A stretch of 64,000 nt of DNA from Nonomuraea rubra. GTDB lineage: Bacteria > Actinomycetota > Actinomycetes > Streptosporangiales > Streptosporangiaceae. The notes beneath the pieces were generated by a model, which made no database searches, was not told the origin of the DNA, and saw nothing but the letters and a program-made list of their open reading frames with translations. Both the position numbers and the translations under genes were made by a program. This document shows positions 52,006 to 55,458 of the stretch, in pieces (position 1 is the first letter of the stretch; each line of letters opens with the position of its first letter). The DNA lies in the NCBI RefSeq assembly GCF_014207985.1, contig NZ_JACHMI010000001.1, positions 4,571,001-4,635,000 on the forward strand. The letters are read 5' to 3'.

Positions 52006-55000
52006 TTGGCAGCCTCGCGCAATGCCTCTCCCATTCCCGCCGGCCCCCGCCGTGTCTCCTTCGCGCGCATCCAGGAGCCTCTGGAAGTTCCCGACCTGCT
52101 CGCCCTGCAGACCGAGTCGTTCGACTGGCTGCTCGGGAACGAGCGGTGGAAGGCCCGGGTCGAGGCGGCTCGCCAGGCCGGGCGGAGGAACGTCCCGGCC
52201 CAGTCGGGCCTCCAGGAGATCTTCGAAGAGATCAGCCCGATCGAGGACTTCTCGGGCTCCATGTCCCTGTCGTTCCGCGACCACCGGTTCGAGCCGCCGA
52301 AGTACTCCGTGGACGAATGCAAGGAGAAGGACATGACCTTCTCCGCGCCGATGTTCGTGACGGCCGAGTTCATCAACAACACCACGGGTGAGATCAAGAG
52401 CCAGACGGTGTTCATGGGCGACTTCCCGCTCATGACGCCGAAGGGCAGCTTCATCGTCAACGGCACGGAGCGCGTCGTGACGTCGCAGCTCATCCGCTCG
52501 CCCGGCGTCTACTACGAGCGCAACGCCGACAAGACCTCCGACAAGGACCTGTACGGCTGCAAGGTCATCCCGTCGAGGGGTGCCTGGCTGGAGTTCGAGA
52601 TCGACAAGCGCGACAGCGTCGGGGTGCGCATCGACCGCAAGCGCAAGCAGCCCGTCACCGTGCTGCTCAAGGCGTTCGGCTGGACGGCCGAGCGCATCCT
52701 CGAGCGCTTCGGCCGGTACGAGTCGATGCGGGCCACGCTGGAGAAGGACCACACCGCCGGACAGGACGACGCCCTGCTCGACATCTACCGCAAGCTGCGG
52801 CCAGGCGAGCCGCCGACCAAGGAGTCGGCGCAGACCCTGCTGGAGAACCTCTACTTCAACCCCAAGCGGTACGACCTCGCCAAGGTGGGCCGCTACAAGG
52901 TCAACAAGAAGCTCGGCCTGGACCTCGACATCGACGTCACCGTCCTGACCGAGGACGACATCGTCGCGGCCATCGAGTACCTGGTGCGGCTGCACGCCGG
53001 CGAGGAGTCCACGGGCCTGCCCCTGGAGGTCGACGACATCGACCACTTCGGCAACCGGCGCGTGCGCAGCGTCGGCGAGCTCATCCAGAACCAGGTCCGC
53101 CTGGGCCTGGCCCGCATGGAGCGGGTCGTGCGCGAGCGCATGACCACGCAGGACGTCGAGGCCATCACGCCGCAGACCCTGATCAACATCCGCCCGGTCG
53201 TGGCGTCGATCAAGGAGTTCTACGGCACCTCGCAGCTCTCGCAGTTCATGGACCAGACCAACCCGCTGGCCGGCCTGACCAACAAGCGGCGGCTGAACGC
53301 GCTCGGCCCCGGCGGCCTGTCCCGCGAGCGGGCCGGCATGGAGGTCCGCGACGTGCACCCGTCCCACTACGGCCGGATGTGCCCGATCGAGACCCCCGAA
53401 GGCCCCAACATCGGCCTCATCGGCTACCTCGCCTGCTTCGGCCGCCTCAACGCCTTCGGCTTCATCGAGACGCCCTACCGCAAGGTCGTCGACGGCAGGG
53501 TCACCGAGCAGATCGACTACCTGACCGCCGACGAGGAGGACCAGTTCGTCATCGCGCAGGCGAACTCGCCGCTGACGGCCGGCGGCTCGTTCGCCGACCA
53601 CCGCGTGCTGGTCCGCACCAAGGGCGGCGAGTTCGAGTACGTGCGCTCCGGCGAGGTCGACTACATGGACGTGTCGCCGCGCCAGATGGTGTCGGTGGCC
53701 ACCGCGATGATCCCGTTCCTGGAGCACGACGACGCGAACCGGGCCCTGATGGGCGCGAACATGCAGCGCCAGTCGGTGCCGCTGCTGAAGAGCGAGGCGC
53801 CGCTGGTCGGCACCGGCATGGAGTACCGTGCCGCCACCGACACGGGTGACGTCATCAACGCGGAGAAGGCCGGGGTGGTGGAGGAGGTCTCCGCCGACTA
53901 CGTGACCGTCATGAACGACGACGGCACGCGGACGACGTACCGGGTGGCCAAGTTCAAGCGCTCCAACCAGGGCACCAGCTTCAACCAGAAGCCGATCGTG
54001 GCCGAGGGCGACCGGGTCGAGGTCAACCAGGTCATCGCCGACGGCCCGTGCACGGACCAGGGCGAGATGGCACTGGGCAAGAACCTCCTGGTGGCGTTCA
54101 TGCCGTGGGAGGGTCACAACTACGAAGACGCGATCATCCTGTCCCAGCGGCTGGTCCAGGACGACGTCCTGTCCTCGATCCACATCGAGGAGCACGAGGT
54201 CGACGCCCGTGACACCAAGCTGGGCCCGGAGGAGATCACCCGGGACATCCCGAACGTCTCCGAGGAGGTCCTGGCCGACCTCGACGAGCGCGGCATCATC
54301 CGGATCGGCGCCGAGGTCGTGCCCGGCGACATCCTGGTCGGCAAGGTCACCCCGAAGGGTGAGACCGAGCTGACCCCGGAGGAGCGGCTGCTGCGCGCGA
54401 TCTTCGGCGAGAAGGCCCGGGAGGTCCGCGACACCTCGCTGAAGGTGCCGCACGGGGAGTCCGGCAGGGTGATCCACACGCAGGTGTTCAGCCGGGACGA
54501 GGGCGACGAGCTGCCGCCGGGGGTGAACGTGCTGGTCCGCGTCCTCGTGGCGCAGAAGCGCAAGATCACCGACGGTGACAAGCTGGCCGGCCGGCACGGC
54601 AACAAGGGTGTCATCTCCAAGATCCTGCCGGTCGAGGACATGCCGTTCCTGGAGGACGGCACCCCGGTCGACATCATCCTCAACCCCCTCGGCGTGCCCG
54701 GTCGAATGAACGTCGGCCAGGTGCTGGAGACCCACCTGGGGTGGATCGCCGCCCGCGGGTGGGACATCTCGGGCATCCAGGAGGCCTGGGCCGAGCGGCT
54801 GCGTGACAAGGGCTTCGAGCAGGTCGCCCCGCGCACCAACATGGCCACCCCGGTCTTCGACGGCGCGAACGAGGAGGAGATCATCGGGCTGCTCGGCAAC
54901 ACCGTCCCGACGCGCGACGGGGATCGGCTCGTGCAGCGCAGCGGCAAGGCGCAACTGTTCGACGGGCGCTCGGGGGAGCCGTTCCCGTACCCGATCGCGG

Positions 55001-55458
55001 TCGGTTACATCTACATCCTCAAGCTGCTGCACCTGGTCGACGACAAGATCCACGCGCGGTCGACCGGTCCGTACTCCATGATCACCCAGCAGCCGCTCGG
55101 CGGTAAGGCCCAGTTCGGTGGCCAGCGCTTCGGTGAGATGGAGGTGTGGGCCATGGAGGCCTATGGCGCGGCGTACGCGCTGCAGGAGCTGCTGACCATC
55201 AAGTCCGACGACGTTCTCGGCCGGGTGAAGGTCTACGAGGCCATCGTCAAGGGCGAGAACATTCCCGAGCCGGGCATCCCCGAGTCCTTCAAGGTGCTCA
55301 TCAAGGAGATGCAGTCGCTGTGCCTAAACGTCGAGGTGCTCTCCAGCGACGGCATGTCCATCGAGATGCGCGACACCGACGAGGACGTCTTCCGCGCCGC
55401 GGAGGAGCTCGGCATCGACCTGTCCCGGCGCGAGCCGAGCAGCGTCGAGGAGATCTGA
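52006..55458 (+). CDS. rpoB: RNA polymerase beta subunit, rifampicin-resistant-type paralogue (RpoB(R)-like)
   Basis: This is a complete 1150-residue beta subunit, with all beta landmarks through to GKAQFGGQRFGEMEVWAMEAYG and the end SSVEEI. I start it at TTG 52006 (MAASRNAS..., GGAAGGA 7 nt upstream), as other actinomycete RpoBs begin; an ATG at 51913 is also in frame. The rifampicin region differs from standard sequence: Thr418, Ala422, Asn426, Asn431 and Tyr474 stand at E. coli positions N518, S522, H526, S531 and S574. His526 changes cause rifampicin resistance. No rpoC follows; a terminator does. It should assemble with alpha, beta' and omega made elsewhere and alter promoter use. Nonomuraea rpoB(R), with H426N, is the known precedent and activates secondary metabolism. 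Confidence 0.96.
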   Translation: MAASRNASPIPAGPRRVSFARIQEPLEVPDLLALQTESFDWLLGNERWKARVEAARQAGRRNVPAQSGLQEIFEEISPIEDFSGSMSLSFRDHRFEPPKYSVDECKEKDMTFSAPMFVTAEFINNTTGEIKSQTVFMGDFPLMTPKGSFIVNGTERVVTSQLIRSPGVYYERNADKTSDKDLYGCKVIPSRGAWLEFEIDKRDSVGVRIDRKRKQPVTVLLKAFGWTAERILERFGRYESMRATLEKDHTAGQDDALLDIYRKLRPGEPPTKESAQTLLENLYFNPKRYDLAKVGRYKVNKKLGLDLDIDVTVLTEDDIVAAIEYLVRLHAGEESTGLPLEVDDIDHFGNRRVRSVGELIQNQVRLGLARMERVVRERMTTQDVEAITPQTLINIRPVVASIKEFYGTSQLSQFMDQTNPLAGLTNKRRLNALGPGGLSRERAGMEVRDVHPSHYGRMCPIETPEGPNIGLIGYLACFGRLNAFGFIETPYRKVVDGRVTEQIDYLTADEEDQFVIAQANSPLTAGGSFADHRVLVRTKGGEFEYVRSGEVDYMDVSPRQMVSVATAMIPFLEHDDANRALMGANMQRQSVPLLKSEAPLVGTGMEYRAATDTGDVINAEKAGVVEEVSADYVTVMNDDGTRTTYRVAKFKRSNQGTSFNQKPIVAEGDRVEVNQVIADGPCTDQGEMALGKNLLVAFMPWEGHNYEDAIILSQRLVQDDVLSSIHIEEHEVDARDTKLGPEEITRDIPNVSEEVLADLDERGIIRIGAEVVPGDILVGKVTPKGETELTPEERLLRAIFGEKAREVRDTSLKVPHGESGRVIHTQVFSRDEGDELPPGVNVLVRVLVAQKRKITDGDKLAGRHGNKGVISKILPVEDMPFLEDGTPVDIILNPLGVPGRMNVGQVLETHLGWIAARGWDISGIQEAWAERLRDKGFEQVAPRTNMATPVFDGANEEEIIGLLGNTVPTRDGDRLVQRSGKAQLFDGRSGEPFPYPIAVGYIYILKLLHLVDDKIHARSTGPYSMITQQPLGGKAQFGGQRFGEMEVWAMEAYGAAYALQELLTIKSDDVLGRVKVYEAIVKGENIPEPGIPESFKVLIKEMQSLCLNVEVLSSDGMSIEMRDTDEDVFRAAEELGIDLSRREPSSVEEI

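Follow-up and report, generated by a model that had tools for sequence, protein, structure and literature searches.

A second, stand-alone gene for the beta subunit of RNA polymerase, rpoB2, lies at positions 52006-55458 (forward strand) of a 64,000-nucleotide stretch of the genome of the soil actinomycete Nonomuraea rubra (hereafter the window) and is of the kind described as rpoB(R) in Nonomuraea. Part of the RNA polymerase in the cell is predicted to carry its product in place of the housekeeping beta subunit, which likely yields a rifampicin-tolerant enzyme with different promoter use; we put the probability of this reading at about 0.82. The proposed role is supported by analogy with published work on the orthologue rpoB(R) (PMC5431353, PMC3536979; papers are cited by PubMed Central number). 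The open frame encodes 1150 amino acids (aa) and aligns end to end with solved beta subunits (best match 7vpd, E = 0), in agreement with the original prediction, which was made from the sequence of the window and had claimed a complete beta subunit with no rpoC after it. Indeed, no rpoC match was found within the 8 kb examined on either side of the gene. A further in-frame ATG is present upstream at 51913; the TTG at 52006 is preferred as the start because it and its ribosome site GGAAGGA (51993-51999) agree with the other copies.

We searched the N. rubra genome (labeled G000; 12.88 Mb in two contigs) for a second rpoB adjoining rpoC and found one, at C1:11480196-11483663 on the reverse strand. 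It is the sole further rpoB match in the genome, is 93% identical to rpoB2, and is directly followed by rpoC. Read from the TTG start, the codon at 53281-53283 of the window is AAC, giving the Asn at residue 426 that had been predicted for rpoB2, whereas the canonical copy has His426. Both rpoC (PF04997) and the alpha subunit (PF01000) have a single match in the genome, and a second polymerase would therefore need to share its remaining subunits with the housekeeping enzyme. The stand-alone product, beta2, would then compete for the shared core and enter part of the polymerase pool.

Primers have been published for both rpoB promoters of N. gerenzanensis ATCC 39727, together with one inside dbv3 (PMC6985074). 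Genome G259 contains exact matches to the dbv3 primer and, in their gene-specific parts, to the four rpoB promoter primers; the dbv3 primer sequence was absent from N. rubra and from genomes G201, G263, and G276. G259 is very probably ATCC 39727. Window rpoB2 and the stand-alone copy of G259 are identical at 1128 of 1150 residues (98%), and none of the 22 differing residues falls at 426, 431, 445, 474, or 477. The 13.9 kb around rpoB2 align with G259 at 91.8% identity, which places the two genes at the same locus. Four of the five substitutions listed for rpoB(R) (PMC3536979) are present in rpoB2 (H426N, S431N, F445M, and S474Y; the fifth is M581D). The two genes also have in common a truncated leader and a shortened beta lobe: rpoB2 has 1150 aa, against 1156 aa in the canonical copy, with a six-residue gap that the alignment places at 53011-53016 (forward strand). 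Judged by identity, neighborhood, and substitutions, the predicted match to Nonomuraea rpoB(R) is one of orthology. Besides the 22 residue differences, both rpoB(R) promoter primers have one mismatch each to the window, and the N. rubra genome is therefore that of a relative of ATCC 39727, not of the same strain.

We compared residues in an alignment of 42 canonical and 31 stand-alone rpoB genes. These came from 25 genomes that have two nearly full-length copies (N. rubra included), chosen among the matches listed from a 250-genome family search, plus 11 further loci; as those matches were ranked by likeness to the window, close relatives are over-represented. Four partial genes in one later set of 16 loci were left out of the counts, and locus L152, whose contig ends before the expected rpoC start, was counted as canonical. 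Residue 426 is His in all 42 canonical copies, and in the stand-alone copies it is Asn in seven, Gln in two (0/42 in canonical copies), and His in the other 22. Residue 474 (53425-53427, Tyr in rpoB2) is Ser in 42/42 canonical and Tyr in 20/31 stand-alone copies, and Cys477 (53434-53436) occurs in 0/42 and 19/31, respectively. The combination His-Ser-Ser at 426/431/474 is absent from all 31 stand-alone copies and from 4/42 canonical ones; nine of the 31 differ from it through Asn431 alone (53296-53298; 22/31 stand-alone, 4/42 canonical). Asn431 and Met445 (53338-53340) were considered as diagnostic resistance markers and rejected, being natural in four and five of the 42 canonical copies, respectively. 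The original prediction thus holds for Asn426 in rpoB2 itself, together with its orthology to rpoB(R), but Asn426 is particular to the window lineage and two other lineages in the sample and is not a hallmark of stand-alone rpoB.

Residue numbers were converted to E. coli numbering with an offset of 100, taken from H426/H526 in PMC5431353. S574Y arose in E. coli under rifampicin selection (PMC7392344); alone, it was fit only at 10 ug/ml, and S531N was resistant to higher doses (PMC7073797). The serine-to-tyrosine change of rpoB(R) has been named S531Y in E. coli numbering (PMC5431353), which does not fit the tyrosine at 474 and asparagine at 431 found both in G259 (L194) and in the window. The altered pocket (Asn426, Tyr474, and perhaps Asn431) would weaken rifampicin binding, and Asn426, to judge from experiments on the orthologue, may make the enzyme behave like a stringent polymerase and increase secondary metabolism. 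The rpoB(R) orthologue is reported to activate secondary metabolism (PMC3536979, PMC5431353), and in S. lividans, rpoB(R) with the N426H back-mutation no longer confers rifampicin resistance or antibiotic activation (PMC5431353); a knock-out of rpoB(R) was attempted without success (PMC5431353).

The pocket counts also bear on a second explanation, which we regard as a tentative possibility: rpoB2 may be pure drug insurance, a rifamycin-insensitive spare target against RNA polymerase inhibitors made by neighbors, with the metabolic effect a by-product. The universal departure from His-Ser-Ser among the stand-alone copies and the restriction of Tyr474 to them speak for it, and no Arr-type rifampicin-inactivating gene (PF12120) was found in the N. 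rubra genome. Against it, the nine copies with only Asn431 carry a residue also present in some canonical copies, divergence between the copies reaches the lobe and 501-550, away from the pocket residues, and an extra rpoB(R) altered global expression with pH in the absence of drug (PMC5431353).

Divergence between the copies is patchy. In quartets drawn from pairs of genomes, sites that unite genes of one type (type-grouping) and sites that unite genes of one genome (genome-grouping) are strongly clustered along rpoB (8/8 quartets; none of 5000 shuffles reached this clustering). The N. rubra genome is part of five of these quartets, which are hence not independent. When the window is set against its three nearest relatives, the type-grouping class prevails over 1-350, 400-600, 800-850, and 950-1000, and the genome-grouping class over 650-800 and 850-950. 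All eight quartets have a type-grouping majority at 300-350 (once only 3 to 2), 450-500, 550-600, and 950-1000; one quartet is tied at 400-450 and one (G261-G250) is reversed at 500-550. We infer from this clustered mosaic that the copies have undergone gene conversion, with the lobe and the greater part of the fork/rifampicin region remaining distinct. Recombination probably keeps much of beta2 like the canonical beta1, while the lobe (approximately 300-350) and most of the fork/rifampicin region (approximately 400-600) stay different, and these islands probably hold the special function.

The same islands raise a further explanation, somewhat unlikely in our judgment, in which the main function resides in the lobe and fork differences (directed at inhibitors other than rifampicin, or changing how initiation factors are handled) and the changes at His426 came late in a few lineages. 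It would account for the 22/31 stand-alone copies that keep His426 and for the type-grouping majorities that all eight quartets have at 300-350, 450-500, 550-600, and 950-1000. The tied and reversed quartets count against it, 300-350 and 950-1000 may be merely hypervariable, and the N426H reversal in the orthologue, as cited above, removes the antibiotic and rifampicin phenotypes together.

Selection on rpoB2 was gauged by the ratio of nonsynonymous to synonymous substitution rates (dN/dS), which is 0.06-0.09 between the window gene and three close orthologues, 0.19 between the window gene and its own canonical copy, and 0.004-0.044 between canonical genes of the genus. These values and the intact frame indicate that rpoB2 is complete and under purifying selection. 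In genome G012 (L154, L155), the stand-alone and canonical rpoB differ by only one synonymous and four nonsynonymous changes, as if one had just overwritten the other. Such near-identical copies show that recent overwriting or duplication happens, and rpoB2 could by the same route be a functionless recent duplicate heading for decay; its intact frame, the low dN/dS between orthologues, and the conserved upstream region and start make this highly improbable.

Several observations weigh against rpoB2 being an rpoB(R)-type, rifampicin-tolerant subunit. Genome G276 also matches both rpoB(R) primers exactly (and fails to match one of the other two), so that identifying the strain takes more than these two rpoB(R) primers. 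The fifth listed substitution, M581D, is absent from rpoB2 and from G259 as well; perhaps the position or residue was published in error, or G259 is not ATCC 39727. Asn431 is found in 4/42 canonical copies and also in the solved beta subunit 7vpd, which we take to be from Streptomyces; it therefore need not mean resistance and alone proves little. Amino-acid differences between the copies extend beyond the drug pocket (16 in 301-350 and 16 in 501-550), so selection may stem mainly from something other than the drug. Hypervariability, or conversion impeded by low local identity, could explain part of the distinct islands, and the higher dN/dS of beta2 relative to canonical genes implies weaker constraint.

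Upstream, the stand-alone copies form groups with common sequence from approximately -200 to the start codon, despite mostly different flanking genes. The window and G201 belong with the largest group in the promoter part. Another group has a canonical-like leader; its member G100 is 98.4% identical to the canonical N. rubra copy over 125 bases (from -94 into the gene). By alignment, the promoter region of the window is distinct from the canonical one. It contains a predicted upstream promoter, P1 (TTGACG-18-GATATT, 51872-51901, forward strand; one found by the promoter scan with 0.1 expected), whose TTGAC does not vary among the 13 rows aligned for the window's leader group, and a predicted proximal promoter, P2 (TGGACT-18-TATGCT, 51938-51967, forward strand), which was identified by eye, is aligned in the leader group with some variation, and was not reported by the scan of the upstream region. 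A direct-repeat-like element, GTTGACA-N12-GTGGAC (51918-51942, forward strand), overlaps the -35 of P2; the pattern, composed after seeing the sequence, has one match in the 64 kb and none in 100 shuffles, and two of three aligned leader groups retain the TTGAC in its upstream half.

The tandem signals recall mycobacterial rpoBC, where tandem promoter-like signals also precede rpoB but drive rpoB and rpoC together and a rifampicin response has been shown (Zhu 2018, PMC6181997); window rpoB2 is without rpoC. By analogy, the tandem promoters could render rpoB2 itself rifampicin-inducible. The alignment of P1 and P2 across the window's leader group and the distinctness of the promoter region speak for this; the mycobacterial effect needed a specific inter-promoter sequence (PMC6181997), and the scan's silence on P2 is a further point against it, so that we consider induction by the drug quite unlikely.

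Between promoter and gene, the rpoB leader, in both kinds of gene, has a variable hairpin between two conserved stem halves, with GGAAGGA downstream of them. At window rpoB2, alignment and a covariance model leave a 31-nucleotide remnant (51975-52005, forward strand) that includes the GGAAGGA, with approximately 60 nucleotides lost; the model scores 105.4 bits at the canonical N. rubra copy and 21.1 bits (E = 0.75) at rpoB2. It matches in 83 of 120 family genomes (E <= 0.001, strict filters). A third, weaker match (34.7 bits) was seen at G062:C8:245851-245941, in a genome with two rpoB genes. By a loose pattern, covering one stem half and composed after seeing the sequences, the leader is present in 42/42 canonical and 27/31 stand-alone copies. 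It is absent from the stand-alone copies of N. rubra, G201, G259, and G276 and from a partial copy in G263. All five have Asn426, and since they form one lineage they were counted as a single event. Asn426 copies in G172, G197, and G057 keep the leader. A causal link between Asn426 and leader loss is not claimed, given the single occurrence and these three copies.

No Rfam match for the leader was obtained in the window at gathering scores, or in L002 and L128 up to E = 1. We attempted to establish the leader structure by covariation and rejected this support: for one named structure, 94.4% of cells were paired, compared with 26-65% for slid versions and a mean of 92.4% for shuffled partners, and one pair changes on both sides where shuffles average 1.4. 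The RNAalifold consensus was weak (-4.22 kcal/mol), and single-sequence folding was barely better than shuffled (z = -0.75 and -1.28). The leader is conserved and possibly structured, no more. On the alignment, the window lineage has lost most of the rpoB leader and kept the promoter region, and expression of rpoB2 is therefore likely uncoupled from the leader's action. In the orthologue, rpoB(R) mRNA was unchanged with pH (PMC5431353), which agrees with a loss of control and does not show such a loss; its expression rises in stationary phase (PMC3536979), and its promoter is weaker than that of the canonical gene (PMC6985074).

A quick tree of 66 proteins, whose genes recombine, places the window gene in an all-stand-alone group of 10 from five genera (support 98). 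The remaining stand-alone copies are placed elsewhere, and the starred branches require at least five changes of type. In a flank comparison with seven reference loci of 25, clear common neighborhoods were seen for window/G201, G157/G240, and G172/G197, and one downstream frame is common to G223, G218, and G118. G259, G276, G201, and G263 have the window's neighborhood, and the genus loci G261, G141, G274, G231, and G100 share the gene only. We sought an empty insertion site in 12 genomes: counterparts of the neighboring binding-protein gene (83-84% identical) were present only in G240 and G157, where matches to the alpha-glucanase region are located elsewhere, so neither was accepted as a clean empty site.

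Taken with the upstream groups and the mosaic, these results may be accommodated, with low confidence, by a picture in which stand-alone rpoB in the family would be a cassette of promoter, leader, and gene at different loci that continual gene conversion keeps partly merged with the housekeeping copy, while selection holds only the lobe and fork/rifampicin islands apart. The rpoB(R)/window copy would be an atypical offshoot that lost the leader RNA, gained Asn426, and escaped a control kept by the other sampled copies. To judge from titles and abstract openings, no paper listed in literature searches on rpoB duplication, the rpoB leader, and gene conversion deals with the leader loss or the mosaic.

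The neighbors of rpoB2 are a siderophore-type ABC transporter (opposite strand), a protein kinase, and an alpha-1,3-glucanase, with no RNA polymerase gene among them. The original prediction had also given the gene its own terminator. A GC-rich hairpin does follow the stop codon (55466-55505, forward strand; -34.5 kcal/mol, z = -4.95), but it lacks a U tract and the terminator scan reported nothing after rpoB2, which leaves a terminator plausible only. Farther downstream, 62849-63871 of the window encodes a protein with BTAD and Trans_reg_C domains, a make-up of regulators that often accompany antibiotic clusters.

Second rpoB genes giving rifampicin resistance through corresponding substitutions are described in Nocardia farcinica (rpoB2) and relatives (PMC5431353, PMC10719064); these belong to another genus and are likened to window rpoB2 by published description only. 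HelR with its rifamycin-associated element is another actinobacterial system protecting RNA polymerase, but it is a separate protein with a 19-bp palindrome, unlike rpoB2 (PMC10719064, PMC8655204).

Among 54 genomes of the genus, 14 have two intact rpoB copies, five have one match (four full length), and one has none; the other 34 have two or more matches including fragments, many at contig ends. Nonomuraea drafts often break inside rpoB (e.g., G262, G263, G268, and G278, where contigs stop partway through the gene), which probably stems from the two copies being near-identical repeats; copy counts from drafts are unreliable. In a class sample outside the family, with at most two candidates scored per genome, 242 of 261 genomes had one rpoB match, 17 had two or three, and two had none; the matches in the 17 (e.g., G293 and G455) are raw, with split genes not told from true second copies. 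Genome G374 has equal-score matches at C1:5552-8986 and 7705018-7708452, near both ends of a 7.7-Mb contig, which probably represent an assembly overlap.

The arrangement of rpoB2 is already known from the antibiotic producer N. gerenzanensis, which is very probably a close relative. What is new is comparative: within the sample, the lineage of the laboratory example stands out for its residue 426 and for its leader alike. The 14 genus genomes with two intact copies suggest that the best-studied two-polymerase bacterium is not one odd strain. Because 22/31 stand-alone copies keep His426 and 27/31 keep the leader pattern, what has been learned from the H426N allele may not hold for other lineages, and the differences between lineages offer a clear, testable contrast for asking what purpose a second beta subunit serves.

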